Source: Dryococelus australis
Lineage: Eukaryota > Arthropoda > Insecta > Phasmatodea > Phasmatidae
DNA length: 64,000 nucleotides
Assembly (NCBI GenBank): GCA_029891345.1
Contig: CM057002.1
Location: 21,369,795 to 21,433,794, forward strand
Direction of reading: 5' to 3'
Shown here: piece after piece, positions 4,501-60,076 of the stretch
How positions within the stretch are numbered: position 1 is the stretch's first letter
Layout of the letters: every line of letters begins with the position of its first letter
The notes under the pieces: generated by a model
Seen by the model: the letters and a program-made list of their open reading frames with translations, nothing else
Told to the model about the DNA's origin: nothing
The model's database searches: none
Made by a program: the position numbers and the translations under genes

Positions 4501-7500
4501 GTTGATTTCAAAAGTGCTCAGGTAACTGTGAACATTGTATAGATAGATATACGACGACCACTCACCAGATATAATGCTGGCACTCGCTGCTGATGTGTGG
4601 AACTGTGTCTCCAAGTACTTCAACGAGAACATCATCGTCCCCGAGCCAACTAAGTTGCTGAATAAGGCGCTCAAGGAGTTGTACACCAGGATTCTGTTCT
4701 TCATCAGTCGCCAAAATGATTTGAAGAAACCTTCAAAGCAGAAAAAATAGGCAGATAGCTTTCTTTGTTGAATAGTTAGGACGCTGTAGCCTACATATGT
4801 CTGGCTCGGTTTTGAAAATCATCATAAAAACTGCCTGTAAATTAATATGTCTCTGTGTGAAGACTGGGTTCAGGACTTACATTAATGTTTGCACCGAACT
4901 TTAAATTTTAACAAATGTTAATAAAAATATAACGTTATATATTGTACGCAACATACTATCAAATAGCCTTCCAAAAATTAATTTATATTTCTGATTATCT
5001 ACTATTTTCTCTTCATCGACGCCTGGAGATAGAGCATAAGCCTCATGTTACTGATATTTAATACGTGCAGCGGAGAGGTACGTAATGGATTAAAAGAAGA
5101 AATTAAGATGACGTTCAAAATTATTCAGTTAACCTTAGACCAACTATATTTGAACGTAGCTATCACGAAATGATGTTACTTTAACACTTGACTTTCTGTA
5201 TATTCTTACTGGAGTAGAGTGGATGTTGACATTTCAAAAGGAACGCCGTTCTGAACCTTATTATGTACACTGTAACGTCGTAAATTTGGGAAAAAGCGAT
5301 TTATTATTATTTAACTATTTATGTATTTGCAAGACAGAAACTATTTCTATTGTCACATTAGTTATTTTAATTGTTATGTAATTTCACTGATAGCTAAATG
5401 TTATTTTTTTACTTTATGTATTTCCAGTATGTCAATTTTGTTCTGTATTTATAAGGCAGTATATGAGCAGTTATCGATCCGTTGCCATGGTAACTAAGTG
5501 ACGTGTTGAGTAATACTTGTTTCTAGCTCTCTCGTGATTGGTCAGTTGTAGACGACGTTATTTTAATTTCGTGTTACAAAGGGATTTACATTATTTAATT
5601 ATTTATGTATTTGTAAGGTATAATATAATTGCACATGTGGGTCTGGCACGCAGGGTTTTAAATTAGATTATATTATTATGACCCGAGTTAGAACTTGAAA
5701 ACAGGTCGTGTCGAAGGAGACGAAGACGCGAGGAAAGTGTAAGGACGAAGTAGGCCTGTTTCGATCGTCGCCCGGGTACATTCTCAGGGAAATTAGTCCG
5801 AACTAGCGCGTGTGCTAATATGTGTTGGGACTGTAATGGCACTACATGCCTGAGATCCTGAATAGGGGAGCCCTCGATGAGAGGTCCTGCCGCATTCAGG
5901 GGGATGCGAGTGCTGTTGACGAGATCAACAGGAACGCCTAGAACTTCGATAATTCTTCGTTTATAAAATTATAATAAGCTAAGTTCCAGAAATATTGTTA
6001 TTAAGAACTAGAGACGAAATCATTATTTTTTAAAGAAGTTGAACCGACTCTAAATTAATTTAACCACGAACGCCTTGGAACTAAGAATATCACGCTTAAA
6101 ACCCTGAGTTAGTTTGGAGCTTAGAAGTAAATCAATTAATTTATTTTCCTGGAAGTTATAAATTTGCAAGTCTAAAAGAACACCTCTATCACGTGACGGG
6201 CAAGTGCTGCTGAGGTCGCGCATAAATTCTAGTCTATAAATTGAGTAATTTTTCCCTCCTCATTTCAGTTGACTGAAAGGAAACTAATTAAATTCCACAT
6301 TTCTTTTGGCCACATCTCTGCTGAGTAGCCATTCCAAGTAGCAGTAGATTTTTCATAAGCATTTATTCTCGTTGTTCTGCTTTTGAATTTTGTTAATGTG
6401 TTATTCGTGGGTGTTATTCTGTCACACACTTAACTTCTTTACATCTGTGTTGCACATTGTCTCCCTGCAATGTACTAACAACCTACATCATCACATGTAA
6501 GGCATACGTAACACGTAGCTGTAGCTGTTAGCTGATGACCGTTGTTACGTCTGGCGCCCCACATGTTAGCGGAACTGTTAGTGTATTGTTGTTACAACAC
6601 ATCACACGCATTTGCACAGAAGACGAGAAGAAATATACTTTATGAATTTCAGTGGGCTTTCAGCACGTCTAATATGAACCGGAAGCTGCGATTCTGACAC
6701 TTACTATGTTTACCAAAGTTTGATTTGTTACAGTCGGCACACGAGTGACGACTAAGCATAAATGACAGTTATGTTCAATATTGAAGTAAGGAAAGAAACC
6801 ATAAAGTAAATGGGGAGTGCGAGACATTAAATCAATAAACTCTCATTTGGTTTCATGGCAATTAAATTTTAAATGGTGTTAAATTTTAGTCCTGTCAAAT
6901 CGCATAATTTTCTGCTGATATTATTATTGATTAGGTCAATTACAATATAAAGTACATTTTGCAGACTTGAGATTAGTTGTGACTATATTAGGCCTATGTA
7001 TAGCTACACATGCGGAGATAAAAATCAATTATAATTCAACAAAATTACAGCTACAAATTAAACCAAAGCTAAAAAATTAAAAATTAAATTACTGGAGTGA
7101 GATGAAATTCGTTTAAAAATAATAACTTATAATAAATCTAGTGTTTATATGACGTATAATTAGTAATAGCAACATACAATTTCATTTTAGTGCTTTAATA
7201 AATACATCAAATAAATAATTATGTTTGCTTACGTAAACTTATTATTGTCATTAATCAAAAAAGTATAAAGATAAACTTTTATTAAAAACAAATGTAACTT
7301 ACTAAAATCTTCCCTTTAAATTAAAGCAAGATTTGATTACTGTAAACAAAACTACCTCAAAGAAATGCTTTCCTTTGTTATACAGAAATCTTTGTATGTA
7401 ATTTTTGCAGTGTATATTCACATAAAACCCACAGCCATGTTATCAACACAGCGACACATCGGTTTTGTTTCCCTCTCAGTTAAATTAACTGTTTCTTTCT

Positions 7501-10500
7501 CTCTGAATGTAGTTCACTTTTTCTGTCCCTCCAAGTGAGGTGCACTTATTCTCTTTCTGCCAGTGACTGCACTTACCATCGTTGTCGACTTGTTTGAGGG
7601 GGATGTCGGCGGGTAGTCCTGGAGTGGTAGGACTGAGCGGCTCCATCTCCTGCAAATGATCCTTGCAGTCGCTGCTGATGATCTCAGGCGTGGCGGACGA
7701 CAGGACATCTTCCTTGTCCTGGCTGGTGGGGATGGTCTTGGGGAAGAAGGCCATCAGCGTCGCTATGACCAGCTTCATCACACCCAGGATTACCCAACCT
7801 GCAGTTACAAGAAACTCATCCTTTCGTGCGAACTAGCTAAACAACGGTCCAAACCAGTTTTATTATAACCTATCTTAAAAACAAGAGAAGAGTCAGATGA
7901 CCTAGGCAAGGGTGAGGCCTAAGTGTTTGTGAAGGCAGAGCGTCCACACGCCCAAGCATGCAGGAAGTTTAACTACAAGGTTGCGTGCTCGCAGTTTTCC
8001 TAGCCTTAGCCCACAATATTTTTCCGTAATAAGGAGCTACTGTTAGTCTTCGAAACATCCAAACAATATGAAATAATTCAGAATGCCAAAGTCCTTTGTT
8101 CCTGCAACCACGACGACATATTGTTTGATTCTGCAAGTTAGAGATGCAGGCTTCAAAAGTTTCTCGGGATTACTGACCACAGTGTGCTAAGCGAATACAA
8201 ACAGGATGGTCGCCAGTTTGCACCTCGTTTTGCGTCCAGTCCTTGAAATGTATATCAATATTCAGGGATTCCATAGCCAAAGCTTCAATGTGTCCAAGGA
8301 GATCGCGATGTTCTACGACGATGATTGAACTATATAAAGAAGCTATTTGTGTCAAAGTTTCCGTGAAAAATATTGACGGGAACAATAAGAAGATGAACGA
8401 CTGGCTGACCACATATTGTTATGGACTAGAGTTGGACTAATCCAGATAGCCCCAGATAGCATGTGGACTTGCAGCAAGTTTGCCTTTTGACTTGAATTTG
8501 CCTTGCCGATCAACCTTGTCATATTATCATTCGTGATTTAAGTTTGATTCACGAGTGACACATACTTGCTAATGCCAAGCTTTCAGACGGCTTAAATTAT
8601 GCTTGCAGGTTGTCAACGTAAGCTTGTGGCAATTTTTAGTAATCAAGCTTGGTACAAGCTTGATATGTGTTGACTAGTTAGCTTAATTGAGACAGGTATG
8701 ATTCAAAATTTTGACTTGTAGAGCCGGCTAAATTCATCCTTACAGTCTTGTCATGACAATCTTGATTTTAACTGGACTCAAGCCAATTATGGTATTGGGG
8801 GATGTAAGGTTACGTAACATATATAAGGAAATGTGCTGGGTAAATTGCTGTGGAAGTGCAAAGGAGGTCCGATTTACACGGTGGTACTGGATCAGAAAAT
8901 AAATTGCTGTACGATTTGTGCAAAGGTTAAAGTTTATTCTACTGAGGTTGGAAACAAAACGAGACACCTTATGAGAGAATTTGGAATAGTGAAAATTCCC
9001 GCCGCTAGGAATGCTGCTTTTCCAAATAATAGTTTTTTAAGCTGGTGGTAAGTGGAGTGAGTTAGTTAAAATATTTGGGTGGCTCCTAAAATCGAGGTTT
9101 TGAGATACAATGAGGGTGAAACGAGGCGAATGTGGAGTAGCGCCAGAATGAAAGGGCATGGAAGACGGAGATCCCCGAGAAAATCCGCCTGCCAGCGGCA
9201 TCGTCCAGCAAGATTCCCACATGCCAAAATCTTGGAGCGACCCCGCCAGGAATCGAACCAGGCTCGCCTTGGTGGGAGGTGAGTAGTCAGACCCCTAGTC
9301 CTCCACGGCCCCCAAAATATCCATGAACTGGGACAAATTCCATGACCTGGCACCACTGTTGGGCAAGCAAACTAGTGTCAATATTGCAGACTACATTTTC
9401 CATTGGCTTCTACTCTTCTAAGATGTTCTTTACATTTGGTGGTAAAACGTAGGGAAATATTATTCTAAAGTAAATATATTTCACTTTTAACTTTTTTTTT
9501 TTTGTGAAATTGCTATAGAAAAAACTTAAAATTTAATTTCGTGTTTTATATTGCTAATAATTATTTGAATACAGAGGAATTTACTAACACAACGGTTATA
9601 TTCTGTGAGCTGTGATCAGTTACTATTGTGATGGTTTACACACAAAGTTTTTCGATTGATATGCTTGTATTATCAGTTTATGTTGATTAGTCCGGAAATG
9701 AATGTAGAACGGACAACTTTGCATGTCGTAGAGTTTTGCTATTGTGAGGTATGCAATGTGAGAAATGAAAAAAAAAACAAAGTAGAAAAACTCACCGAGC
9801 CACCAAGCCCCCAGCCAGCGTGGGTCTTTGGTCCCAATGACTGGCGTCAGTGTTGGGTCGACGTACATACTGAGGCAGAACGATGATAGTACATAACCGA
9901 GTGCGGGTCCCAGCCTCCTCACGGACAAAATCACTCCTGCAGAGAAACAAAAACAGAAAAAAACAGTTTGTTGCTACAAAACAGTTATGGACCATTCATG
10001 GTTGCTTCCAACTTGTCTGAAGCCATGCTGAAGTTCTACTTTCAGTCTATTCATCTGCCACATCCAAACAGTGTTCAACAATGTCTAGATTATTGCACCA
10101 TAGGGACAACGGACCTCATTCGTGCGCACACAGTATAATATTTTACATGATAACTATTTCTTACTAAGTATTACCAGCGCATTTATTTTCTCGCTGCATA
10201 TCTTCAGTTCAATCATAAACGAAATATTATAATTTAAAAATAAAATATTAGTAAAAGTTAAAGTTAAGTAAAAAAAACGATGATTTTGTGTGAGCAGATG
10301 TATAAAACACTTCGAGATACATAACATATTCAGGACACAACTAAACATGTCGTATATGGAGTGACTTTTCAAAGGTCTGGTCCAACAAACCTAAAGATAT
10401 TTCTAATGGTATGTTTATGAGTTTTTGCTTCAACGGACATTTCCAACAACTCAACTCACATCTGATCCTATGAAATAATAAAAAAAATTTATTTTTGAAA

Positions 10501-19500: not shown

Positions 19501-22500
19501 CATTTATAGAGCGTTTCCGTGAGTTCGCAAAACATTTTGTGAATTTTATGGTAATTTTTACCGGGTAGTTCTCCCTAATTTCACTGGGTTTTTTCTACCT
19601 TGTACATTAGGAAAATACATGTTAGGAATACACAGTTAATATTTAACCAGTTATCCAACGTGATATTGCCGCTTAAGGAATAAAATCAGCTGCCATATTA
19701 GCACACTATAGCAAAAATTTTGCATCGGACATTTTTCTTGAAATATAATAATTTTCAGGCATAGAACCTAGTGTAATGGATTTCATATGCTAGTATATAA
19801 TCGGGGATACCTTTATATGGATTTTTTTTTGCTCATCAACATAAAAATTCAGACTTTTGAAATTTTTCTGTTTTGCTGGAGTTTACTGATATCTAACTAA
19901 AAAAAATTACAATTCGCTAACATTGCAATTCGTACGATTAAAACTATTATCTTTAACAATATCTCAAAGGCGCACGATGGATTGTAAAACATTTTATCTA
20001 TTGCTGTGATCTAACAAAGCTGTTTCCTGTGGTTGGCTGGAAACCACCCCAACCACGACAGTATTCGCGACGAGGACACGAGTAGCGAGATATTATTAAA
20101 ACATACATCTATACTAATATTATAAAGAGGTAGTGTTTGTAACTTTGTGTGTTTGTGTGTTTGGATGTAGGAGGTAATCTTCGAAACTACTCACCCGATT
20201 TTAAACATTCTTTCACCAGTAGAATGCTACGTTATCACTGAGTGTCATAGGCTATATTTTATTTTAAAAATCAATAGGGATCCCTACTAAAACTCCAATA
20301 ATGTAACCCAAAGTGTAAATAAATGACCTATAAAATTCCTTACATTGGGTGCGCTGCGAAAACTATTGATGATAGAACAAAATAATGTACTACGGCTTTG
20401 CAGGACGGACAGATTCGGAAAATAAAACGTGCTGTGTGCTGCGTACGGCGCCAACCTTAGAAGCTCTACTGCCATTATGGGGGGAGTTACGTTTGTGTTT
20501 GCTGGGGATTTTCGGCAGATACTCCACTCCCTGTAGTTACAAAAGGGACGCGTGCAGATATCATCAAAGCATGTCTTAAATCATCTCCCTTATGCAGTTC
20601 TATTCAACACCTAAATTTGCTAACGAATATGAGAGCCTATCTTGGTGGAGACACGCATAAAGATTTCCCACAACAATTGCTCAGACTTGGAGAAGGAGTT
20701 TTTCCTTCTCTAAATTTGGGCACTAATTCTGCTGAAATCATTTTTAATGAGACATTAGGTCAGATAGTCCACAGTCTGCAGCATCTTATAGAAGCAGTAC
20801 ATCTGGGCCTCGAAAATTTACTAGAAAGAGACTTTCACTGGTTGTGTTCCAGGGCAATAGTATCGCCTAGGAACTACACTGTCAATGAAATCAACAATCT
20901 CATTATACAAAGAGTTCCCGGCCAAGTCAAAACCTATAAGTCGATTGACACAGTCACCAATGTTGACGATGTCGTCCACTTTCCTCAAGATTTTCTAAAT
21001 TCGCTTAATCCTTCTGGCTTGCCACCTCACGAACTATCATTAAAAGTCGGTACTCCTATCATGCTTTTAAGGAATATAAGCCCTCCTAACATGTGTAATG
21101 GCTCAAGATTGCTCATTAAAGACTTGAAAGAAAATTTGATTGTCGCGACCATCCTCACCGGTCCAGCAGTCGGCCAGCTGGCAAACATCCCGAGGATTCC
21201 CATGATTCCCACGGATTTGCCAATATCTTTCAAACGGTTGCAATTTCCCGTAAAAACATCGTTCGCGATTACTATTAATAAGTCCCAGGGTCAAACCTTC
21301 TTTTTGGTTGGAATCGACCTACGAAAAGAGTGTTTTTCCCATGGCCAACTATATGTTGGTTTATCACGAGTTGGAAGTCCCGAGAAACAGTACATTTTGC
21401 TACCAAACAATAACAGGACGTCAAACATTGTCTACAGAGAATGTCTTAGCCAATAACATATTAAATACTTCTATCTCAGATAAATAGAATTGTAATATAA
21501 TGTATATTAATATGAAAAATTATAAAAAAGTAAAAAAATATCAAATAAAAATAGCAAAAAAACTTTAAATTATAATGTGCTTTTTTTAATGCTTTAGGAG
21601 AGTTTACCTAACCTAATTAACTCCGGGTTAAGCAGTTTTTTTTATCTTAATTGCACCCGTGCGAAGCCGGGGCGGGTCGCTAGTTCGTAATAATCCGGCG
21701 CCGTGTATTTAGCACACGCGGAGGACTGAAGCAGGGCCTGTCGCTGACCTGCTGCCAGACAGCTGCCACCTGACTACGGGCTGCAAGAGGACGTTCTGTT
21801 GCCGCCGATTCTGAGACTTCTGCAAGCAGCCTTCGGCATCATTAACAAGGTGCTATTGATCCAGTGAGTTACTGCAGAGACTTTATTAGATTTTGATGTC
21901 ATGGCTGATAATAATTGAGTTAATTATATCAATAAACTCCCCCAATTTAAAGTAAGGAAAATATTGTACGAGTTGCGACAGTTGTGTTTTGATTGTGTCC
22001 TATATAAAGAGATTAGACACGACATTGCATTTAATTTAAAGCGACACCTTGTAAGAGTGCTACACTGTCTGTCTACGCTTAACTCCTTTTGAGCGTGTGG
22101 CTTCCCCTCTTCAGTAAGAGCCACAGCAAGTGGTGGAGGCTAAGCGAAACTCCACCAAAACCATTAGTAGTTTTGGATATTTATATTGTTACATTGAAAT
22201 TCAATACATTTTAAGTGTGAAAAAGTTGAAAACTATTGCGAGGGATAAGTGGAAGCCACTTTCCCTCAACTATATTTGGATACCCCTCCATCGCACGCGA
22301 GAATAGTTAATGTGTATAGGTAATGAAACAAGGTTTAATTAGCAAGTAAGATTGATTACTACTGCCACGTAGTTAAAACACATTGGGCGATCTTCACGTT
22401 AGGGCAGGTGACGACGGAGTTACGTGAGCTGCAACGTAGCAACGACCTTGCTAAGCAAGCAGTTTCGAGAGCGAGGAGCACGCACGGGTGTAAGCTGCCA

Positions 22501-25500: not shown

Positions 25501-28500
25501 TCAAGCAGGCTGCCGCATTCGCGACTGCAGGGAAGATTGCTTGCATCAGCCGCGCATCTGTGTGGAAGTCCGCCCTGTCCAGTACCAAGCTCAGGGTCTT
25601 GACCAGTAACACTGAACACAATGGGGTGTTTCCCAGTATTGAGAACACACACGAATGTTGAAATCATCCAGTAAACCTTACTATCAGGAGACACACTACC
25701 ATATCTGTCTTATTTGAATAACATACAATAACCAGACTATCCACAAATTTCAAGTAATAAGGCAAGGCAGTTCCTTAACTAAAACTTACAGTGTCATGTC
25801 CTATCCTCCTACTCTTTAATTTCCCAACTTATCGAAGAGGTCCTAATTCCCGCTGCCAAGAAACAAACGAGGACACTAAGGGGCCAGACTGTCATGCCAC
25901 ATCGCCAAAGCTCTGTCTCAGAGCTTGGGCCAGCTCTTAATTCGATTGAGGGGGTCATGCTGTGATCTAACAAACTGTTTCCTGTGCTTGGCTGGAAACC
26001 ATTCCAACCAAGACAGTATTTGGGACGAGGACACAAGCAGCGAGATATTATTAATACAAACGTTCGTAACAATACAATGCAGCGTATTCAGTGCATGTAG
26101 AGGACTGAAGCTGGGCCAGCGACTGACCTACTGACAGACAGCTGCAACACAAAGATGGACGCAAGAAGGCGTTCTGTTGCCACCGATTCTGAGATTTCTG
26201 CAAGCAGCCTTCGGCATCTTTACAAGGTAATATCGTTCCAGTGAGTTACTGAAGATACTTTATTAGACATTGATATCTTGGCTGATAATAATTGAGTTAA
26301 TTATTTCAATCAACCCCCCTGCTTTAAAGTAAGGTAAAGATTGTACGAGTTGTGTCAATTCTATTATGATTGTGTCCTATATAACGAGATTAGATATGAC
26401 ATTGTGTTTAATTTAAAGCTACACCTTTAAGAGTGCATCACCATCTGTCTACACTTATCCCCTTTTGAGTGTGTAGCCTCCCTCCTTTAGGAAGGGCTAC
26501 AACACTTTGTCACAACACAATAATTGATACACAGTTAACATGTGACTTCATTGGCTGACAGCCAGCTAGTTGTAGATGTGGGAAAGTATAGTAAGCATGC
26601 GCGGTGTAGCCAGAACCAATAGGATGAAGGTAAGTGGAAATACAGAGATCAAACCAACTTATATTACTAGGGACACCCTAATTTCGCGAAAAGATTTCCA
26701 TGCATGCAATATTTCAATACCCTACAGGTGTACCAGAAGTTTTCCTTTGTTTATTGTCAATCTGGCTCTGTGAAAGACATTTACTCACTTGACTGGTCAA
26801 TCAGAATTAGATTACCCCGATACTATATGTCTGTGATTCGCGGACAGACACCTAAGATGCATAATAACTAGGTCGTCCAATCACGATGGTGGATCTGAGT
26901 TAACGTGGTATGAAGTGTAACTTGTCCTGATATTTTTTTGCGAAATGCGGGTGTCCCTAGATATTGCTGTAGTGGAGATTATAGGTAGCTCACTTCCACA
27001 TTGTCCTTAGTGCCAGTAAATTTGTACCATCTTCAAAGGTTTAATGTTTTGATGGTAGCTGTTTTATCACATCCAGGCCCATCCTTAATAAGTATGCCGA
27101 ATGATGGTTAGGCTGCCGGCTGGGAAGTTAGTTACTAGGCACTGGTTGGAAAACGAAGTTCTGACATCTTAGTGGTGTATGTGGCTGGAGTCCGTGGAGT
27201 AAGTGATTATCTCACCACTGCATAGTTAAGTATTCTATGGCTACAACATGTTCACACATCAGCTCCTGTTGACTTACTTGCTAAGCGAACAGGATAACCG
27301 ATGGGTAGGATCACCTATTTCCCGCTAAGAGATTTCACGACTAGTTGTACTCCAAAACAAGTTAGTTCAGAACCAATATCGTGGGTTGGATGGTTTTAAC
27401 TCGCATGCTTCAAAAGTGTCCTTCACTACCGATCACGGACGTGCAGTTTCATGGTAACATTATTCTGATTGGCCGAAGGAAATGTGGAATATTGCACATA
27501 TGATGTTGAAGTCTAGCCTCAGCGTAGATCTTTTCGCGATAAAACTTCTGGCCACACCGATGAGGAATATTTCGCAGCACACAACAGCTTACTTCAAGAA
27601 CCTCGGGTAGCCAATCTGCAAGTGCGTAAGCTCACATCGAAGGAACCACCTCGCAATTTCTTTTCAGAGCAATTCGAGTGTCTATTGCATCATGATTATG
27701 TACATAACTCTATAACAGTGGCATGAGGTGAACTGTTCAATGTGGGCTGTGTTTTGCTCTGTGCTATATCTAGTCACTTGTTAGTGTATGCATCGGACAA
27801 TTTAACATAGTAGTGTAGTTGACGTAGCAGCATGTTTGTACCGGGTGCTTCCCCGCCCTCTCGTGAGTGGCCGCAATACATTCAGTTTCTCCCGGCTTCA
27901 CTCTGGTTGCTGGTTCCTGCTGCGCTTGCCGAGTGTGTCCACCATTGAGCAAACACCAACTGGCCTTGCAACACTTTACCACACGCCACTGATCTATAGG
28001 AAGTTCATGGTAAGCTGAGCAATTTTGAAAGACCTACTTAAAAATCTACTTGAATGCACATTGTATATTCTGCTGCCATATATGCATTTAATAATGACAT
28101 GTGCCACTTTATTCATGCATCTGTAAAGTGTGAGTGTGATTGTGTTAAAAAAAATAAATATTTTACAATTTTTTCCATTCTTGCACATATATGAATTCTG
28201 AAAAACAATAACAAATAATTATACTATTCTCGAATGTTGAACTAACTCCTTAAATCCAACTATATACATGGAACTAAGATTCCTGTGTCATTACCAACTT
28301 TATTAGTCTCATCCGAGTAGGCATGTCCTTAAAAATATATGCAGTTAGGAACAGCACATTTTTTCAAAGTTTGAATATCAAATGTGTAGTGTTTGAACCG
28401 TTACACGCTAATATTTTACTCATGAGCGAAAAAAATTTCAGCACTGACTCATGGTGCGGCTGGAAATCTTGAAGCGCTTCTCGATCATGGTGAAGGTGGC

Positions 28501-28644
28501 GACACTGAAGCTATTCGTCATGCCCTGGAACACGGCCATCATGCTGAAGATGACGATGTAGCAAGTAATGTTAGCCAGTCTCTGCAGCCATCTCGGCCGG
28601 AATCTCCACAGCCCGCACAAGCGCAGATCGGATTGCTTCATATC
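1369..28644 (-). CDS. Organic anion transporting polypeptide (Oatp/SLCO), seven exons, 3' part missing
   Basis: Polytopic plasma-membrane transporter of the SLCO/Oatp family, which moves amphipathic organic anions such as steroid conjugates. Exons 28644-28449, 18157-17924, 15648-15436, 9936-9796, 7798-7577, 4730-4566 and 1561-1369 join in one open frame of about 454 codons with GT-AG introns throughout. The product covers TM1 to about TM9. Landmarks are FRPRWLQRLANI before TM1, GGRGHRPLW between TM2 and TM3, sequons NVS and NSS in extracellular loop 2, YIDDHSK after TM4, the signature region DPRWLGAWWLG at TM6, and KYLETQF after TM7. The signature has Leu where Ile/Val is usual and WVI where F/L-L is usual. 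The Kazal-type cysteine loop and last helices are not in the window, so they must lie left of base 1. The coding start may be the ATG at 28641 or an unseen upstream exon. No frame break is seen. The paralogue cannot be assigned. Confidence 0.92.
3291..3526 (-). other. Candidate cassette exon in an Oatp intron, unrecognised
   Basis: An open frame of about 78 codons is bounded by a good acceptor (ttattctcag before 3526) and an excellent donor (ATGA then GTAAGTAA after 3291). The peptide (for example FGKWHVTKMILLHNLERAFS) matches no family I know. Spliced between Oatp exons 6 and 7 it would enter in the wrong frame and hit a TGA after about 35 codons. It is therefore not ordinary Oatp coding sequence. 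It may be a poison exon, a non-coding exon, or chance. Confidence 0.3.
4176..4540 (+). repeat. R1 MITE-like repeat, copy 1
   Basis: It starts with GCGCTTTTGAAAGCCTGCTTAA and ends with GGTTGATTTCAAAAGTGCTC then TGTGAAC. The two ends are inverted repeats of each other. It shares TCTACTTGTATGCACATTGTG and TATGGAACTACTT with other copies. It ends about 26 bp from the donor of Oatp exon 6. Confidence 0.65.
4566..4730 (-). CDS. Oatp exon 6: TM7
   Basis: Acceptor tgctttgaag, donor GTGAGT. It encodes FFKSFWRLMKNRILVYN entering TM7, then KYLETQFHTSAASASIIS, the well conserved post-TM7 Oatp motif. The exon is 165 bp, phase 1 at both ends, and joins directly to the next recognised exon (G|GC = Gly). 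Confidence 0.92.
5481..5541 (+). promoter_or_regulatory. RFX X-box, CRE and inverted CCAAT cluster
   Basis: GTTGCCATGGTAAC at 5481-5494 is a perfect palindromic RFX X-box. TGACGT lies at 5499-5504 and GATTGG (inverted CCAAT) at 5536-5541. The order X, CRE, Y recalls promoters bound by RFX, CREB and NF-Y. It lies within the Oatp intron between exons 5 and 6, followed by a GC-richer stretch (5700-5950) without a recognised frame. It could be an enhancer, a repeat-borne promoter, or chance. Confidence 0.4.
5550..7560. other. Oatp intron 5, unannotated part
   Basis: Mostly AT-rich sequence. 5590-5620 partly repeats 5305-5335 (TTATTTAAnTATTTATGTATTTG). No gene seen. Confidence 0.5.
7577..7798 (-). 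CDS. Oatp exon 5: TM6 and large cytoplasmic loop
   Basis: Acceptor tgtaactgcag, donor GTAAGT. It continues GAWWLG into TM6 (WVILGVMKLVIATLMAFFPK), then an acidic, Ser/Pro-rich loop (SPTTPGLPADIPLKQ) as expected for the TM6-TM7 intracellular loop. The exon is 222 bp, phase 1 at both ends. Confidence 0.9.
9103..9315 (-). repeat. tRNA-derived SINE
   Basis: Minus-strand copy of the family at 47896: B box GGTTCGATTCC at about 9248, head region CTCACCTCCCACCAAGGCGA, body TTCTCGGGGATCTCC at about 9182-9168. It lies in Oatp intron 4-5's upstream neighbour sequence. Confidence 0.75.
9796..9936 (-). CDS. Oatp exon 4: TM5 and family signature
   Basis: Acceptor ttctctgcag, donor GTGAGT. It encodes RRLGPALGYVLSSFCL (TM5), the YVDPTLTPVIGTKDPRW loop and GAWWLG, the core of the Oatp superfamily signature. 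The exon is 141 bp, phase 1 at both ends. This is the strongest single exon for the family call. Confidence 0.95.
9989..10395 (+). repeat. R2 MITE-like repeat, copy 1
   Basis: It starts GGACCATTCATGGTTGCTTCC, with AGGGACAACGGACCTCATTCGTGCGCAC in the body and GACTTTTCAAAGGTCTGGTCC at the end (complementary GGACCA termini). It begins about 50 bp upstream of the acceptor of Oatp exon 4. Confidence 0.65.
11497..12800 (+). pseudogene. Ty3/gypsy integrase fragment, broken
   Basis: The end of a pol polyprotein. 11580-11861 carries the HH-CC zinc-binding start (HVGIHKTYKALRLQFFWKK, then a C-x-x-C pair interrupted by a stop). The catalytic core follows with LVSVELFG (first acidic residue Glu instead of Asp), SDKGSQFTG near 12108 and NPVEQCMRHLG near 12213 (the catalytic Glu). 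12566-12793 is the C-terminal part with ALFEGPYEVKR and GRFNLSALRIY. There are several stops and one shift. No LTRs were identified. Confidence 0.8.
12801..15430. other. Oatp intron 3, unannotated part
   Basis: 13780-14650 is less AT-rich with short open frames on the plus strand, none with recognisable protein content. No repeat end was identified. Confidence 0.5.
15436..15648 (-). CDS. Oatp exon 3: extracellular loop 2 and TM4
   Basis: Acceptor tgtgcttgcag, donor GTGAGT. It begins with a Cys-containing extracellular stretch (LVCDIGWNSSETCDG) with an N-S-S sequon, then TM4 (LAIIFISHLLFGVGMVLN) and the family motif GETYIDDHSKRENTPIMFG, equivalent to the usual SYIDDN..K..SP of Oatps. The exon is 213 bp, phase 1 at both ends. 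Confidence 0.93.
15808..16190 (+). repeat. R2 MITE-like repeat, copy 2
   Basis: Start CCATTCATTGTTACTTCCAAC, body CACAGGGACAACGCACCGTATTCGTGCGAA, AACTATTTCTTACTACGCATTATC. It lies about 160 bp upstream of the acceptor of Oatp exon 3. Confidence 0.65.
16876..16940 (+). repeat. R5 dispersed repeat, copy 2
   Basis: CACATTTGAGGCCGAGAAG and GGTGCGCCATCGCC, with an internal deletion relative to copy 1. Confidence 0.5.
17604..17916 (+). repeat. R1 MITE-like repeat, copy 2
   Basis: Ends GGCTGTTCACAATAAACTGAGC and GTGCTCACATTATGGTGAACAG. The interior shares CCTGCTTAAGATCTACTTG and TTCGACGTTAAGATATGGAA with the copy at 63180. The right end abuts the donor of Oatp exon 2. Confidence 0.75.
17924..18157 (-). 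CDS. Oatp exon 2: TM2, TM3 and start of extracellular loop 2
   Basis: Acceptor catatcttccag, donor GTAAAG. It encodes RSGMDISQITLSLILAY (TM2), the intracellular GGRGHRPLW motif, TM3, and FVYGPGSEAL leading into the extracellular loop, which carries an N-V-S glycosylation sequon. The exon is 234 bp, phase 1 at both ends. The donor lies only about 8 bp from the end of an R1 repeat, and an R2 repeat starts about 23 bp before the acceptor. Confidence 0.93.
18175..18600 (+). repeat. R2 MITE-like repeat, copy 3
   Basis: Start GTCCATTTGAGATTACTTCCAAC, body GTTCAACGCACCTCATTCGTGCGCA. It begins only about 20 bp from the acceptor of Oatp exon 2. Confidence 0.65.
20108..21683 (+). mobile_element. Truncated Helitron
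   Basis: The 5' end TCTATACTAATATTATAAAG and 3' end ...CGCTAG, preceded by a short hairpin (ACCCG 21655-21659, CGGGT 21673-21677), are Helitron hallmarks. Insertion is between A (20107) and T (21684) with no target duplication. At 1,576 bp it keeps only the last part of the RepHel protein and cannot move by itself. Confidence 0.85.
20530..21456 (+). pseudogene. Helitron RepHel, C-terminal Pif1-type helicase fragment
   Basis: SF1 DNA helicase domain that unwinds DNA in rolling-circle Helitron transposition. The frame from about 20530 through the TAA after 21453 is open and contains LKVGTPIMLLRNI (about 21040), INKSQGQTF (about 21274) and HGQLYVGLSRV (about 21341), the C-terminal Pif1 motifs. 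The Walker B-like GDFRQI motif lies just upstream (about 20507) in another frame, so a small deletion lies near 20525. The Walker A region and the Rep nuclease are missing. Confidence 0.85.
22129..25957. other. Interior of the 20.0-26.5 kb LTR element
   Basis: Very AT-rich, without a frame longer than 90 codons. No gag, protease, RT or integrase motif is readable. It may hold further nested insertions or be a non-coding (TRIM or LARD-like) interior. Confidence 0.45.
25958..26504 (+). repeat. 3' LTR, uninterrupted
   Basis: It aligns with the 5' LTR throughout (for example GGCTGGAAACCA, GCGAGATATTATTAA, TGCAAGCAGCCTTCGGCATC). It shows the pre-insertion state of the Helitron site near 26062. 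Confidence 0.65.
26669..26958. mobile_element. MITE with TA-flanked inverted ends
   Basis: Left TAGGGACACCCTAATTTCGCG (26669) and right TTGCGAAATGCGGGTGTCCCTA (to 26959) are inverted copies flanked by TA, as for Tc1/mariner MITEs. About 290 bp with no coding potential. Confidence 0.7.
28010..28405 (+). repeat. R1 MITE-like repeat, copy 3
   Basis: Diverged copy: GCTGAGCAATTTTGAAAGACC start, AAATCTACTTGAATGCACATTG, CATGGAACTAAG, AATATATGCAGTTAGGA, ending near GAATATCAAATGTGTAGTG. It lies just past the donor of Oatp exon 1. Confidence 0.6.
28449..28644 (-). CDS. Oatp exon 1 as recognised: N-terminus and TM1
   Basis: Acceptor ttgtctgcag precedes 28644 and the donor after 28449 is GTCAGT, a weaker site than the others. 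It encodes a short cytoplasmic stretch with CGLWRFRPRWLQ, TM1 (about ANITCYIVIFSMMAVFQG) and the MIEKRFKISS segment typical of Oatps just before TM2. An ATG lies only 3 nt into the exon (28641), so this may be the first coding exon behind a 5' UTR intron. The convincing acceptor also allows an upstream coding exon, which I could not find. The exon ends in phase 1. Confidence 0.88.
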
Positions 28645-28832
28645 CTGCAGACAACACAGAAACAATATACGGTAAGTTCCAAAATAGGAGGAAAGTAATC
28701 GAGGAGTGAATAGTACCACCAAAAATAACACAATATGTTTGTCTGAACATATTGTTACATGTCGATGGTCTTCACCGCTGAATTTGGCCCATCCCTTACA
28801 AGCAGGTGGAAGAGAAGGACAGAGTATTTATA

Positions 28833-39066: not shown

Positions 39067-39698
39067 CGGATAAAATCTCTTGAGGTTTTATTCTTGATAT
39101 AATATTTGGTGTTCAGGCACGAATTTTAAAATAGGAGTGTATGTGTTGGTTTGGTTGTGATGGGGGGGGGGGGGGGGGGGTGTACAGGAGAGAGATACTT
39201 TTCTCTTAAAAATATTCATATACATATTTTAAAACTGGATGATGAGGAGTTCGTGATTAGAGAACAAACCGAAATATAATCAATTTATTTTCTTCAGTGA
39301 ATGTTACTCTAAATTACCTTGTCATGCTTAACACGAAATACTGTTTTTATCTTATCTGTCTATATTTTAATAAGACAATATGTACAAAAAGTATACAGTT
39401 AATTTGTTTTGCTTAATATCGTAAGATATTGTGTTGTGGAGAATAAGTGAAGAAGACTGCCAAGAAAAAAATTAATGCTTTACGCCACACACAAACAAGT
39501 TTCTTTGTCGTTCAGCACGTGTATGCCCCCTCCTGTTACAATTAACACCGGGATTGCCTTGTATAGTCACTAAATATTGTTCTCAGTGTATAGGTTCTAA
39601 CCCAATACAACTCGCAAAAAAATAATTTATATTATGAAAATTTATAATACATAACGGGAAAATCCGGTAGACATGCAATGCCAGTGATGCATAGTAAT

Positions 39699-40010
39699 AG
39701 ATGTAAAAGGCCGATCTTGGCTCACCTCACTTTTTGGGGTTATTTCTTCTAAAATACAACAAAAATTACAGTACACTATATAGGGTTATTTCGCCAGAAA
39801 GTACACGAAAAAGTTAAAAATTCAGAATCTGTAATTAGATTTTAAAAAACCGTGAAAATCATGCAAAAAGGCCAAAATCAAGGCATTTTGAGGGTAAAAA
39901 AAATGACACAGGTAAAGCAAGTAAAATTATGCAAAAATCAAGCAAATTTAAGACAAGCAAATCAAATCAGTTGAAAAGATAATTCATAGAATTTAAATAT
40001 TAAACTCGAT
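39699..40010 (+). repeat. Left terminal inverted repeat of the 6.2-kb element
   Basis: It matches the complement of 45495-45901 with diverged bases and an internal gap of roughly 80 bp. Shared blocks include GTAAAAGGCCGATC, GGGGTTATTTCTTCTAAAAT and CAAGTAAAATTATGCAAAA. Confidence 0.75.
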
Positions 40011-40094
40011 ATCATGTACAGATTTTCCATCTGTAAAAAATGTTATAGTGAATATGTTAGTAGTCGTTATGAATGTTAAAAGAGAGAGAGAGCA

Positions 40095-42395
40095 ATGTGC
40101 GAGTGTGGAAAATATGTTTATAATACATCTCTCAAAAAGCATAGAAATAGTATATTACACAATATAGCATTAGATAATTTAAACGAAAATCATGATAATT
40201 ATCCAAAAAAAACATGTAAAGCGTGTAATGAGATCAAATCTATACAATTATTTTCTCTTAATAAAAATAGTAGGGACAAATATTCAGTCACATCAAAAAA
40301 ATATTTTAGTGATTACTTGTATAACAACTGTGTTGAACGGTGAAGGAGTGAGGATGTTGAGACGTATTGCTGAAGATTTTAAAATAGAATATATAACTAG
40401 AGCAAGGAAAAAAGATCTAATAAGAACTCTTATAACAATTTTTATGCCGATGGTTTTAGACGGCGGAGAAAAATAAAGCAGATAAAAAGAACAAGGAATA
40501 ATTTTACGAATTCACCTTTGGCTTATGCAAATATCAATGAATTCACAAAATATTTCCATTCTATAACAATTTTGTTAACAAAAAATAGAAGAAAAACAAA
40601 AATTACTTAGTTAATCAAGCTTTTAAAACTAGAGTACCAACATATAACACTGAAAATACTTTTAATTCAGTATAATCCATTCATTTTTTGACTTCAGCAA
40701 AAAATAAGATATTTGAGATAATACACAATAATGTTAAAATATTTAGAGGTGTGAAAACCAGTATTAAATTATATGCTACTTTTCATAAACAAAAAAAAAA
40801 AAAAATCAAATACGATTGTTCACTTTTCAATCACCCAATTATACAGCATTGAATGCTGGGAATATTAAAAAAAAATTACAAATTCTTAATAGAAGAAATA
40901 CTTACACAATTAACTGAATTTCAAAAACGAGATTCTGGATGGGCTTTAGATAAAATAATTTGAATACAATTAGCAATAAATAAGTATAATCTATTAAGGG
41001 GCTCATCATATATTTATCTATCAGAAGTGATTAAAAATAAAAAAGCGTGCATAAATGTAAAGAATAATAATCAAAAATGATTTCTTTGGGCGATTAAATA
41101 TGCACTAATTCCTGTAAAAAAAATTCATTCAGAGTATCTAAATATAAAAACCTGGGGCTTAATATTAATGAAGCAATAGATAAATATGAATAACCTATTA
41201 AAATTGATGATATACCAAATATAGAAAATCAAATTGATACATCTATAAATGTATACTCTATTGATGATAAATCTATGGTATATTCACTAAAACTCACAAA
41301 AAATAAAAAATAAAAAACATAAATTTACTTTATTTCAAAAGCAATACAAAATCGCATTATTGTTGGATAAAAGATTTATCTAAACCGCTTTCTGCACAAA
41401 AAAAAAAGAACAAAACTTTTATATGTGATACGTGTCTTCAATTATTTTATTCTCAAGAAAAATGAAACAAACATACTGCAGATCGTTCTAAAAAAAGAAG
41501 CTGTAAAATTCACTTTACCCCTAAAAGGAGAGCAAATCAAATGTAAAAATTATAAACATACAACGAAGGTTCCATTAACTATCTATGCAGATTTTGAATC
41601 AATATTAAAGATAATACCAACAACTAAACCAAACCCAAGAGGAACAAAAAAAATTTCAATTAATTAAAAAATATCCAATTTGAACAGAGGATGATATTGA
41701 TAATGGTTTTTATATAGAAACACTTAAAGGACGATTTAATCTTACTAATGAACAAATAAATAACATTGATTTAGAATTAAATGATGAATCATACACAGTG
41801 AAATATCAATTACACGAAGTATGTGGTATCTAAGTATGGTGATTATAAGCCCCCAGTAGTATACCGAGGACCAAATGCTCATGAAATATTTATACATTCA
41901 ACAAAAATAGATGTAGAATAAATTTGGGAAATATATTCACAAATTGAAACAATGCATCTACTAACAAAAGAAGAAAAAATATTATATAGGAACTCTGATA
42001 AATGTGGATATGAATATACAGAGAACGATAAAAAAAAGTACACCATCATGATCATATAAGTGAAGAATTCATTAATCCTGTATGTCATCATTGTAATCTA
42101 CAATTAAAATTACCCAGTTATGTTCCAATTAATTTTCATAATTTAGCAGGCTATGATGATGAAAAATGTGAAAAATTAGTAGCAAAACTAAATTTCAAAA
42201 GAAGTACTATATTTAATGAAAATCTTGCAGCTATACATATGAATAAAACAAATGCAAAATGAGAATAAACCAATTTATGTGGGTATGTCAATTTTAGATA
42301 TTTCAAAATGATTAATGTATGATTTTAGTTATAACATAATAAAACCAAAAATGGCTATAAAATTGAATTAGGTTATCAATATATCGATAGGCAAT
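40095..42395 (+). pseudogene. Protein-primed family B DNA polymerase, N-terminal and exonuclease part, broken
   Basis: Replicative polymerase of the DNA_pol_B_2 type found in Polintons, adintoviruses and bidnaviruses. Visible pieces, in order and in shifting frames: a Cys/His cluster (MCECGKYVYNTSLKKH; KTCKACNE) at 40095-40345, FQKRDSGWALDK near 40920, NKYNLLRGSSYIYL near 40980, KKACINVKN near 41040, the exonuclease I motif IYADFES at about 41581-41601, and FHNLAGYD at 42134-42157. The polymerase catalytic palm motifs are not seen, so the C-terminal half appears deleted. At least ten stops or shifts interrupt it. Confidence 0.75.
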
Positions 42396-42413
42396 ATCAT
42401 TATATTTGTATGC

Positions 42414-43512
42414 TTAATATAATTTATTTACTTCTTTATCACCTCTTTCAAGTCTTTCATTTAATATTGTAAATGGACCACAATAATTATAACCTGGCAA
42501 ATGCATTTCGGGTAAATTTAAATTGTTTAATACCCAATTTATTACACCATTTCCATAGTGTTCTGAATTCCAAAATGAATGCGAAATAACATTTAAAACT
42601 CTTATAAGATATATTGTACCTTTTGGATTATTTTTAACAAATTCTGAAAATTTATTGTATAACATATTCATTATGTTCACTTTTTCATTGTAAACACTAT
42701 TATTTCCAGCATTTTCTTCGCACTGAACAACTAATTATTTATCAATTAATTTTCTAAAATCAACCATCCAAACGTACTATTTGGGCAAAATATTATATAT
42801 TTTTATACCTTCTCCAGATTTAGGAGTTGTTGTAGAAGCAATCTTTCTGGTGCATCTGGTAATGACTTTGACTGTGAATTTTTTATATATTCATCATAAA
42901 TTGGACTAATTATCTTAATATACTTAGTATTGTTACTTGCGGTTGGATTTTCCTTTTTTTTTATTAGGAATATATTTTTGTTATATAGCATTGGTTGCTA
43001 AAATAATATCTTTGTAATTTTTAATGTCAACATTATTGAAATTATCTTCGAGTTCTTCATACGTACTTTTTGTTAACAAATGAATAAAACCATCTGTAAA
43101 TTCACATTTTTTATCTTTGACAAATAAAAAATCAACATCTATTTTTACTTTTGTATCACCAATTTCAAAATCTTGACCAACTCCTCGTTAACCAAATTTT
43201 TCATTAAAATTAATATTTTCAGAAATAAATTTTCTGAGATTTATAGTAGAAACACCTGATATAGGCGGTAAATTTTTTTATGATACAATTCCCATTTGCT
43301 CTTCCAATTAGGAGATTCTTGTTCTGTAAATAATTATTTTTCAAAGGATGTTTCATCTGGTGATGGTGGATGATCTAAATTTTTTGCAGCAACAGGTAAT
43401 AGTGCTGTTATTAAATTTTTATTTTCTTCACACTTATTTGTTCTATGTTTTTGTTAATATTTTGTAATGCACGAATTAATGGTAGATCTTTCTTCTGTTT
43501 TTTTTTTTCCAT
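42414..43512 (-). pseudogene. Parvovirus VP1-type phospholipase A2 protein, broken
   Basis: The minus-strand segment 42680-42414 ends with LPEMHLPGYNYCGPFTILN and RLERGDKEVNKL. This corresponds to the calcium-binding loop of the phospholipase A2 domain in parvovirus and densovirus VP1 (LPGYNYxGPGxxL), the activity used to breach endosomal membranes. The second Gly of GPG is Phe here and the catalytic HD motif is not reached before the frame ends. Upstream pieces (ALLPVAAKNLDHPPSPDE near 43400; LYNKNIFLIKKKENPTASN near 42960) are in different frames. The copy is non-functional. Confidence 0.6.
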
Positions 43513-43618
43513 ATTCTACCTCATGGTTCTTTTTATAATTTCTGTACTTCTCGAGTAGCAATTTCACTCAATGAAATCTATTTTATTCTCCCATTTATAT
43601 ATAATTTTTTTACTTATA

Positions 43619-44870
43619 AATGAGTTATAAAAGCACTGAGAGTTTTGAGAGACAAACTTTTCCCCCAACTGATCAAACTAGTAAAAATTAAAATGTTTAC
43701 AATAACAGATTAGAGTTTCATATTCCTATAGGAGATGGCTTTTAGAAGAATATCGCTTACTAAAAGAGACAAATTTGGAGATGAGACAAAATACGAAAAA
43801 TTAGATAATATTGATATTTGTTCTATTTCAGTTTTCTAGAGTAGATATTAAAAAAATTTGGGCAGATTATTGAGGTTGATGATAATCCAGGAATAACGAC
43901 GACAATGATGGATATTTTCCTAAGATCACTAGGTGACCAAAGTTATTTGGAGTCTACTGGTGTTGATAAGAAATATCGAGTAAAATCGGTTAGTAGTGAT
44001 AAAATAAATGAAATAATGTATCCATTAAGTTATTTGTTTGGTTTTATTCGCGATAATAATGAAGTTTACTGGAAGGGTGGTAATGAAATAATTTTTTTTT
44101 CGAAATTCGTCTGATAAATGTTTATTTGTTTATGAAGAAAAATGCAGATGGGGCGGTTGATAAAACTTATGCTGATCCATGTAAAATTGTTATTGAAAAA
44201 TTAAAAAAATAATGTGGCTCATTGTTGAATACGAAGCTAACACATCAGTTACAATTAAAGAAAATGTATATGTAAATCCTAAAATTCATATTGGTTTTAA
44301 TTATTGGCTATTTTTAGAAAAAGAAGTTCATGCTGGGACGACTGTTTTTAACTTCGATTTAACATGTCTGATTTTGTAATTGTTTGATCACTGTAATGCG
44401 AGAAATATTTTTGTTAAAAATGGTAGAAATGAAATTTTTCCAAAAGAAAATTGGAATCTAGATATTGAAAATGATCTTTGTCTTAAAATGTCTCTTGCTT
44501 TTAATGATTTTAGAAATTCAGGAACAAAATTAGATACAATGTATGAAAATAATGATCTTTATTATAAGCCAACTATAAACTATGAGGGCGATATCAATTA
44601 TTATTCATTTTGGGGACGAAGACCTTTATATGTTATTGACTGCCTATTAGAAAACAGCAGTAGTTAAAGATAAAACAAATATAAAAATTGGTGTTAATTT
44701 TAAAAAGCTCTCGATGCTGGTACAATTTGGAATGTTGTTTTAATTAGTCAACGAAATTTTACTTATGATTATTTGAAAGAAAATATCACTGAAGATGTAT
44801 AAATTTCTAATTTTATTAAATGGGCAATGTGAACGGTTTTACAGAAACAAGAAATTGTTTCGATATTTTA
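43619..44870 (+). pseudogene. Unrecognised, possibly structural protein of the 6.2-kb element, broken
   Basis: A series of plus-strand open pieces: MSYKSTESFERQTFPPTDQ at 43619, 43905-44114 (MMDIFLRSLGDQSYLEST...), 44380-44667 (NARNIFVKNGRNEIFPKENW) and a tail to about 44870. Together they suggest one protein of about 400 residues broken by shifts. Position next to the PLA2 protein suggests a virion or capsid role, but I do not recognise a named family. A further short open piece at 45250-45462 may be another remnant. Confidence 0.45.
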
Positions 44871-44909
44871 ATACAATTTTGTAGACTCATAGTTGAGTGG
44901 TCGCATTAA

Positions 44910-44930
44910 TTTTTTTTTTTTTTTTTTTTT
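44910..44930. repeat. T21 homopolymer inside the 6.2-kb element
   Basis: It lies just after the third decayed gene of the element; it may be slippage or an inverted retroposed tail. Confidence 0.9.
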
Positions 44931-45494
44931 ACGAATTCTTAGAAGTATAGATGAATTATTCTATTGAATAAAAACAATAATTATATTTTAAAATGTTTTA
45001 TCTAATAAAGGACCTTATATTTTTGTCATATATTCAGTATCCGGCATGCCGGATACTAAAATTCCATAATGAATAAAGCATAACATATCGTTAGTAGTCA
45101 ACACATTATTTCTACAAATAAGGGAACCCAAACATTTTTGAACCAACTTCCTAAATTAATATTATAATCATTGTATTTTATACATTCGAAAATATTTAAA
45201 TAACAGTATCACTTTTATATATATACAGATTTTTAATATTATAAATTGATCAAATTACAGAACTTTTAGAAGTTTGGGATATTGGGAATGAAATGATAAA
45301 AACACAAACATTTATTGATAAAGAATTGGTCCTTGTTCATTTCAAAATTGTTTTAAAAATCGAAAAGAATGATTTAAGATCAAATAAATGTTCTGATTTT
45401 AAAGATTATGTTAATGGTTTGGAATGTTGTGATGGTTGGTATTATGGGTTTTTGACAACTTAAAAAAATCTTATTGGAGTTTTACTTTTGTTGA

Positions 45495-45901
45495 ATAATA
45501 TTGATAAATTCTATCAATAATCTTTTTTAATATTTCGTCTGGTTTGCCAATTTTAGCCTTAAATCTGCTGTATTTTGCATAATTTTACTTGTTTTACCAG
45601 ATCAAATCGTGTGTGCACATTTTTGAACTGCTAAATTTTTTTTTGCTTAAAACTGCCCGTTTTCGACAGCTCCTTTCAAAAATGCTTTTAGAGCATATAT
45701 TTAACACTCAAAATATTTTGATTTTGGCTTTATTTTACATAATTTTCACGGTTTTTTTCATCTAATTTCGGATTTTTATTTTTTAACTTCTTCATGTACT
45801 TTTTAGTGAAATAATACTATTAAGTGTACTGCATTTTGTTGTAATTTTAGAAGAAATAACCCCAAAGAAGTAAGGTGAGCTAGGATCGGCCTTTTACATC
45901 T
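45495..45901 (-). repeat. Right terminal inverted repeat of the 6.2-kb element
   Basis: Inverted partner of 39699-40010. It is longer than the left copy because the left lacks a block around 45605-45700. The end is at ...CCTTTTACATCT (45901). Confidence 0.75.
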
Positions 45902-46077
45902 ACTCATAGTGACAAAAAATGTTATGTGCAGATCAATTAGCATCGAGCTTGCCAACATGAGCAAAATAAACCTTAGTTTTTAAGTCAATTCCGCCTCGTG
46001 TGAAAAGCGACGTAACCAAAAACCTGATATGTTGTGACCATATGTCAATTACTGATGCTGTGAAACTGTTGATTTAG

Positions 46078-59365: not shown

Positions 59366-60076
59366 CTATTTTCGGGCTGTGGGGCCGCAATTATTGAGGC
59401 CATTCATGCCACCCATCCCCATACCTGCGCCGAAACCCATTCCACTACCAAAACCCATACCAGGCATCATGCCTAAACCATTCCCCATCAAACCGTTACC
59501 AGAACCTCCACTGAATCCCGCACCTGCGCCGAAACCCATGCCACTGCCCATGCCAGGCATAAAACCTAAACCATTTCCGAAAATGGGAGACATCCCTAAA
59601 TTATTACCCCAAACACTGCTTCCGCATAACCCCATGCGAGCACCGACTCCAGCACCACCCATGCCAGCACCCATCCCTGTACTGAAACTCAAGCTACTGC
59701 CGGCATAAGGCATCATGCCGACACCGTTGTAAAACCTCCCTCCCATGTCGGAGCCAACGCCGAAGCCCATCTTGCTGTCGCCGCTTGAAGCTTGAGCTGC
59801 GGCACCCATTCGCTCGTCGCCGATGGACCTTTCGCCCGAGGTCAGGCCGTACGACTCGGGGGTTGCCCGTGTCGGCTTTGGTCGCCACGTCGCCCTTGGC
59901 TGTCCCGTAGACTTGCTCCAGCCTGGCCGACACAGGGGCGCCGCCGCCCATCGTCCCCACGTTGCCACCAGCAGCATAGCCGGAGTTCCTGTCGCTCGCC
60001 TCGCTGATGAAGCCGTACAGCTTGCTGATCTGTCGTCTCTTCTTGCTCGACATCAGGCTGGACGTCCTCCGCCTGC
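59366..60076 (-). CDS. Gly/Met-rich low-complexity protein, terminal exon with a frame break
   Basis: An acceptor-like cgacctgcag precedes 60076. The N-terminal part is ordinary sequence (MSSKKRRQISKLYGFISEAS from ATG 60053; RLEQVYGTAKGDVATKAD). The C-terminal 160 residues are almost only Gly, Met, Phe, Ala, Asn and Pro, in repeats such as GLGMMPGMGFGSGMGFGAG, ending at TAG 59368-59366. Continuity from the first part to the second needs a frame change at the G5 run 59858-59862, which may be a sequencing error or a real lesion. An AATAAA lies about 110 bp after the stop. No signal peptide or transmembrane segment is visible in this exon. Such composition occurs in structural, adhesive and RNA-binding proteins; no function is assigned. 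An R1 repeat sits about 50 bp upstream of the acceptor. Confidence 0.6.

Follow-up and report, generated by a model that had tools for sequence, protein, structure and literature searches.

Polintons/Mavericks are characterised by terminal inverted repeats (TIRs) with AG...CT type ends, a 6-bp target-site duplication (TSD), a protein-primed DNA polymerase (PolB), an rve integrase and an A32-type ATPase (PMC8097293). Vertebrate Mavericks have 6-bp TSDs and AGT-type ends, and their copies are mostly degraded (PMC8097293). The PY protein is a predicted double-jelly-roll (DJR) capsid (PMC4028283). Here we describe an element of this kind in a stretch of DNA of 64,000 nucleotides from the stick insect Dryococelus australis (assembly GCA_029891345.1, contig CM057002.1, positions 21,369,795 to 21,433,794), and this whole 64-kb stretch is called the window below.

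Two Spodoptera frugiperda elements, Sf Maverick 1 and 2, are among the closest known systems; they possess eight tandem open reading frames (ORFs), including POLB of about 1160 residues with an endonuclease VII part, INT, ATP, PRO and a protein bearing phospholipase A2 (PLA2). In that paper the PLA2 protein is called the capsid, no homologue of PY is reported, and similar PLA2 proteins are noted in other insect Mavericks (PMC5803895). Lipases closest to the PLA2 of parvoviruses are encoded by some Polintons (PMC4642659), and phospholipase clusters occur in some Polinton-like viruses (PMC7805220). The Bidnaviridae, represented by Bombyx mori bidensovirus, combine inverted terminal repeats and a Polinton-type PolB with a parvovirus capsid and a helicase (PMC4061559).

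The element in the window shares with Polintons/Mavericks the TIRs, the 6-bp TSD and PolB, and its family carries the AG...CT type ends, the rve integrase, the A32-type ATPase and a DJR-type capsid gene. It differs from them in size and gene content: at 6.2 kb the window copy has neither integrase nor ATPase nor protease and has lost much of PolB, and the fullest copy seen with both ends reached 13.0 kb. It differs from the Sf Mavericks in that a DJR-type capsid gene adjoins the PLA2 gene and in that the strand arrangement is other. The element is, with high confidence, a decayed, internally deleted copy of an ordinary Polinton/Maverick of about 13 kb belonging to a multi-copy phasmid family. 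This reading is directly supported by the ends, the duplication, the fuller copies with integrase and ATPase, the gene order, and the positions and sizes of the deletions. The first-pass annotation, made from the letters of the window, had recognised a Polinton-type integrated element and had offered a deletion derivative of a larger, PLA2-bearing Polinton as one of its readings; both agree with our results. The compact virus-like transposon of its headline was not supported, and the element is no 'PolB + PLA2' lineage: integrase, ATPase, a protease candidate, PLA2, capsid and PolB stand together, in the same order, between like ends in a fuller copy.

The features of the element are as follows.

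39690 to 39695, no strand: left TSD, CATAGT, read from the sequence
39696 to 39936, + strand: left TIR, starting AATAGATG (family form AGTAGATG)
40183 to 40476, + strand: frame piece with a Rho_N-like motif, after the left TIR and upstream of the matched PolB (PF07498, E 3.3e-5; 24.2 bits, below the cut-off of 24.9)
40865 to 42160, + strand: remnant of PolB, its N-terminal and exonuclease half, broken by stops and frame changes (tblastn E 2e-17 and 4e-8; DNA alignment to copy L033)
42155 to 42161, no strand: deletion junction 1, where PolB lacks about 1.2 kb
42161 to 42350, + strand: PolB remnant, short late segment (tblastn E 1e-12)
42381 to 42384, no strand: deletion junction 2, where about 5.1 kb of the 13-kb copy is absent
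42384 to 42734, - strand: PLA2 gene remnant with a truncated domain (PF08398; homologues P0001 and P0002)
42735 to 43567, - strand: broken frames, probably the N-terminal part of the PLA2 protein (from frame pieces only; the DNA aligns to other copies)
43732 to 44802, + strand: capsid gene remnant of DJR type, with putative start and end and a matched core at 44302-44667
45036 to 45057, no strand: 22-bp perfect palindrome, 3' of the capsid gene and before the right TIR, common to some copies
45573 to 45904, - strand: right TIR, ending CATCTACT
45905 to 45910, no strand: right TSD, CATAGT, read from the sequence

We placed the boundaries by using the ends common to the family. The left end AGTAGATG was present in 13 of the 18 family copies whose left end was read, and the other five, the window copy included, were one base off; the right ends of the nine two-ended copies were at most two bases off CATCTACT. 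The shared left ends therefore set the element at 39696-45904 (6,209 bp), and the 6-bp duplication on either side, CATAGT, is perfect. In the first-pass annotation the ends lay two or three bases further inward, which is why the duplication was called imperfect there. The AG...CT ends that the annotation reported are those of the family and of the type, but the left end of the window copy itself has AA. The long inverted repeats that it reported were confirmed: within the window, the arms 39698-39899 and 45902-45694 shared 83% identity across 206 bp (E 2e-46), and weaker blocks extended inward as far as 39936 and 45573. The divergence K between the two arms was 0.200, a value that dates the insertion only if both arms began identical. 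The GC content was 25.5-26.2% in three 2-kb blocks within the element, compared with 32.5-43.5% in the other blocks.

Then the host genome (3.4 Gb) was searched with the terminal repeat, as the first-pass annotation had proposed. The search gave 43 rows, 40 of 924 first-look candidates having been scored, and revealed that the repeat belongs to a multi-copy family. We examined 17 stretches, each of at most 10 kb and many of them cut at that length, so that absences among them carry little weight. Nine copies, the window copy included, had both ends, and their lengths ranged from 2.6 to 13.0 kb. The 6-bp TSD was perfect in six of the nine, the remaining three matching at 4/6, 5/6 and 5/6 positions. 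The fullest of them, the C9 copy, is 13.0 kb long and has like ends and a 6-bp TSD. From the PolB end, its order is PolB, a minor-capsid candidate of 179 residues, ATPase, integrase, a protease candidate, a small ORF, PLA2 and capsid, which agrees with the order in the window. Another copy, L042, has the same gene set, although its PolB-side TIR lies outside the stretch or is lost. The first-pass annotation had named younger copies of 15-20 kb with integrase, ATPase and protease as the sign of a simple deletion. In substance this was borne out by the 13.0-kb copy with integrase, ATPase and a protease candidate, although that copy is shorter than the range named and is old as well (TIR K 0.227).

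PolB matches fell in eight of the first 16 stretches (seven copies), PLA2 matches in eight and capsid matches in 13. The integrase and ATPase ORFs occurred together in the same five of 17 stretches, the protease candidate in eight and the minor-capsid candidate in six, the query loci being counted in each case. The integrase matched PF00665 above the cut-off in L043 (E 8.7e-12) and below it in the C9 copy (E 6.5e-5), and the ATPase of L041 matched Pox_A32 (PF04665) above the cut-off (E 5.6e-5). The integrase ORF also gave NCBIfam matches to IS481/IS3 transposases; these were far below the cut-off, and we did not accept them as its identity. The sole Pfam match of the minor-capsid candidate, which would be the counterpart of the single-jelly-roll minor capsid protein of Polintons, was weak and unrelated (E 0.049), and NCBIfam gave nothing. 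When the integrase, ATPase and protease ORFs of the family were searched against the window, nothing matched, and the earlier statement that the window copy lacks these three genes was thereby upheld.

The PolB-type remnant on the + strand, already recognised in the first-pass annotation, is a remnant only. One PolB piece searched alone found the homologues P0003 (1,099 residues, E 3.1e-8) and P0004 (973 residues, E 4.6e-4). When P0003 was mapped onto the window, residues 47-302 corresponded to 40865-41628, residues 401 to about 443 to 42035-42160, and residues 861-923 to 42161-42350. Residues 302-401 had no protein match in the window; the DNA there aligns with L033. About 417 residues (about 444-860) are gone at 42160, and everything past residue 923 is gone at 42350. 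Conserved blocks of P0003 and P0004, which we read as the polymerase motifs, fall in the stretches that the window PolB has lost. It is through these two homologues, and partly on those motifs, that the family would possess the protein-primed PolB of Polintons/Mavericks. Neither the PolB pieces nor the capsid pieces of the window gave a meaningful match in Pfam.

The PLA2 remnant lies on the - strand, as had been noted before. Its domain matched PF08398 with E 2.9e-4 (21.5 bits, just under the cut-off of 23.9), and its homologues were P0001 (E 4.5e-16) and P0002 (E 7.5e-15); the PLA2 of the C9 copy matched the same profile with E 8.6e-14. The remnant contains an in-frame stop, its catalytic motif is not conserved, and its domain is cut at the second junction. 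A third gene, that of the capsid (about 43.7-44.8 kb, + strand), had been overlooked. The piece at 44380-44667 was 82% identical over 41% of its length to P0005, a Dryococelus australis protein that was the sole relative found for it. P0005 matched the double-jelly-roll-like domain PF21738 with E 1e-4 (22.1 bits, below the curated cut-off of 27), and it is through P0005 that the capsid is assigned to the DJR type. P0005 appears to be a composite gene model; the part that matches copies of the element is residues about 132-224, and the P0005 match in L013 corresponds to window 44302-44496. No relatives were confirmed in viral contigs with a PLA2 homologue, the capsid piece, two PolB pieces and a PLA2 alignment as queries, nor in one scan of genome contigs.

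The palindrome downstream of the capsid gene is exact in the window and in L031 (L031:2410-2431) and 20 bp long in L043 (L043:8878-8897), and near-perfect forms are indicated in L034 and L037; it might serve as a terminator or as a site of recombination. A stretch of about 210 bp around it (44994-45205) is present in some copies, partial in others and absent from L038-L040, which suggests subfamilies.

Since the family possesses PolB, a DJR-type capsid and integrase, the element might also be regarded as an endogenous virus of adintovirus type and not as a transposon in the strict sense. In the definition of adintoviruses, the PolB bears an OTU-like domain, the hexon is recognisable and the rve integrase has a chromodomain (PMC11071296). 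We hold this view only tentatively and consider it rather unlikely; the names overlap, and it is compatible with a deleted Polinton/Maverick.

The alignment to the C9 copy bears on how the window copy became short. It is interrupted at 42158, where about 1.2 kb is lost, and at 42383, where 5,141 bp are lost, and smaller gaps also occur. Lost at the second junction are the end of PolB, the minor-capsid candidate, the ATPase, the integrase, the protease candidate and the end of PLA2. Overlaps of 3-4 bp at both junctions might be microhomology, and we do not use them as support. Within the fetched set, outside which most of the family lies, junction 1 was spanned in none of the six copies with sequence there and junction 2 in none of 10 stretches. 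Both sides were found apart in three copies for junction 1 and in three for junction 2, and the rest show one side. About 113 kb off lies L031 (G000:C10:21528384), an inverted duplicate of the 42.4-47.8 kb region of the window, with K of 0.038-0.050 over the right flank and end (flank 0.038, right TIR 0.044), compared with 0.200 between the two TIR arms of the window copy. L031 runs about 2.3 kb beyond junction 2 into interior that aligns with other copies. Because this duplicate keeps about 2.3 kb of the lost interior, the 5.1-kb deletion probably took place at this locus. Read most simply, the element inserted, decayed over a long time and was duplicated locally before the window copy lost the 5.1 kb. 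PolB was matched neither in L031 nor in L047, and these two are uninformative on the first deletion.

These data also bear on another idea, in which relatives of full length would have moved or packaged the 6.2-kb form, much as with a defective genome; it would then be a mobile, non-autonomous deletion derivative, shortened before integration. The window copy has both TIRs and a perfect TSD, and seven other copies shorter than 13.0 kb have both ends (2.6, 3.7, 4.8, 7.1, 8.4, 8.5 and 10.4 kb), four of them with perfect TSDs. However, no other copy of the fetched set spans its junctions, and the duplicate of its right side and flank keeps the interior; we therefore think this origin improbable. 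Equally doubtful is its wider form, in which phasmid Polintons would shed short, internally deleted genomes with intact TIRs that re-integrate in trans, the window copy having been a 6-kb mobile satellite at landing with PLA2 and capsid kept as virion parts.

The first-pass annotation had also proposed a relative or intermediate of the bidnaviruses, that is, an integrated parvovirus-type virus that had acquired a Polinton PolB, on the ground that PolB-type and PLA2-type remnants stand together in one small element with inverted repeats. The PolB of bidnaviruses is indeed taken from Polintons (PMC4061559; PMC11071308), but the pairing is not a hallmark of bidnaviruses, because the capsid of Bombyx mori bidensovirus is described as lacking PLA2 (PMC4061559) and the same pairing is published for Polintons (PMC4642659; PMC5803895). 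The capsid gene here matches the DJR type, albeit below the curated cut-off, and not the parvovirus-type single jelly roll, and no helicase or parvovirus capsid profile was found among 15 distinct element pieces, the other copies not having been searched for helicase. The fuller copies of the family carry integrase and A32-type ATPase, and the probability of a bidnavirus origin is close to nil. The Bidnaviridae are not known to have an integrase. The copies bearing integrase and ATPase settle this question.

Several results weigh against the reading as a deleted copy of an ordinary Polinton/Maverick. No library profile named P0003 a DNA polymerase: Pfam and PHROGs gave endonuclease VII, and NCBIfam gave nothing. 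A tblastn search of phages with P0003 gave only weak endonuclease-type matches among the 15 listed of 319. A structure model of PolB from a two-sequence alignment was unusable (pLDDT 28), and the best sequence matches of P0003 in PDB were to arrestin (E 7e-4 and 0.013) and look spurious. The PolB call depends on the putative motifs, the genomic context and the layout of endonuclease VII and PolB in the Sf Mavericks (PMC5803895). Two ATPase ORF pieces of L042 had no Pfam match, and the ATPase of the C9 copy was named by likeness to them. The sole PDB match of the protease candidate, which would be the counterpart of the adenovirus-type cysteine protease of Polintons, was a viral cysteine protease (E 0.46), with none in Pfam and none significant in NCBIfam. 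Moreover, segment 42381-44351 differs from L031 with K 0.111, higher than in the flanks, and exchange or conversion between copies may blur the argument from the duplication.

Elsewhere in the window, a 331-residue open frame (20461-21456, + strand) has PIF1-like helicase domains (PF21530, E 2e-17) and is probably a Helitron remnant. Exon-like pieces of an organic anion transporter lie on the - strand at 7485-7832, 9623-9973 and 28438-28827, of which the second matched Pfam above the cut-off and the other two below it. A glycine/methionine-rich open frame of 228 residues (59366-60052, - strand) had no Pfam match.

Taken comprehensively, a Polinton/Maverick of about 13 kb integrated here and created the 6-bp duplication. 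The living element would have replicated through protein-primed PolB and inserted by its own integrase. Its PLA2 may have served membrane passage at entry, following the parvovirus analogy drawn in PMC4642659. After insertion, the TIR arms diverged, stops and frameshifts built up, and the loss of about 1.2 kb of PolB and of about 5.1 kb lying between it and the PLA2 domain left 6.2 kb. The window copy should be inactive.

No title on Dryococelus Polintons appeared among the 8 papers listed, of 449, in a literature search pairing Dryococelus with Polinton terms; one of the 8, a Helitron paper (PMC6544945), names the species. The present findings remove a tempting but mistaken link between bidnaviruses and Polintons, and add, from a stick insect, a multi-copy Polinton family whose PLA2 and DJR-type capsid genes lie within one element. 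This bears on the interpretation of the PLA2 protein of insect Mavericks as a capsid that replaces PY (PMC5803895), and in this family the PLA2 protein looks to be separate from the capsid.

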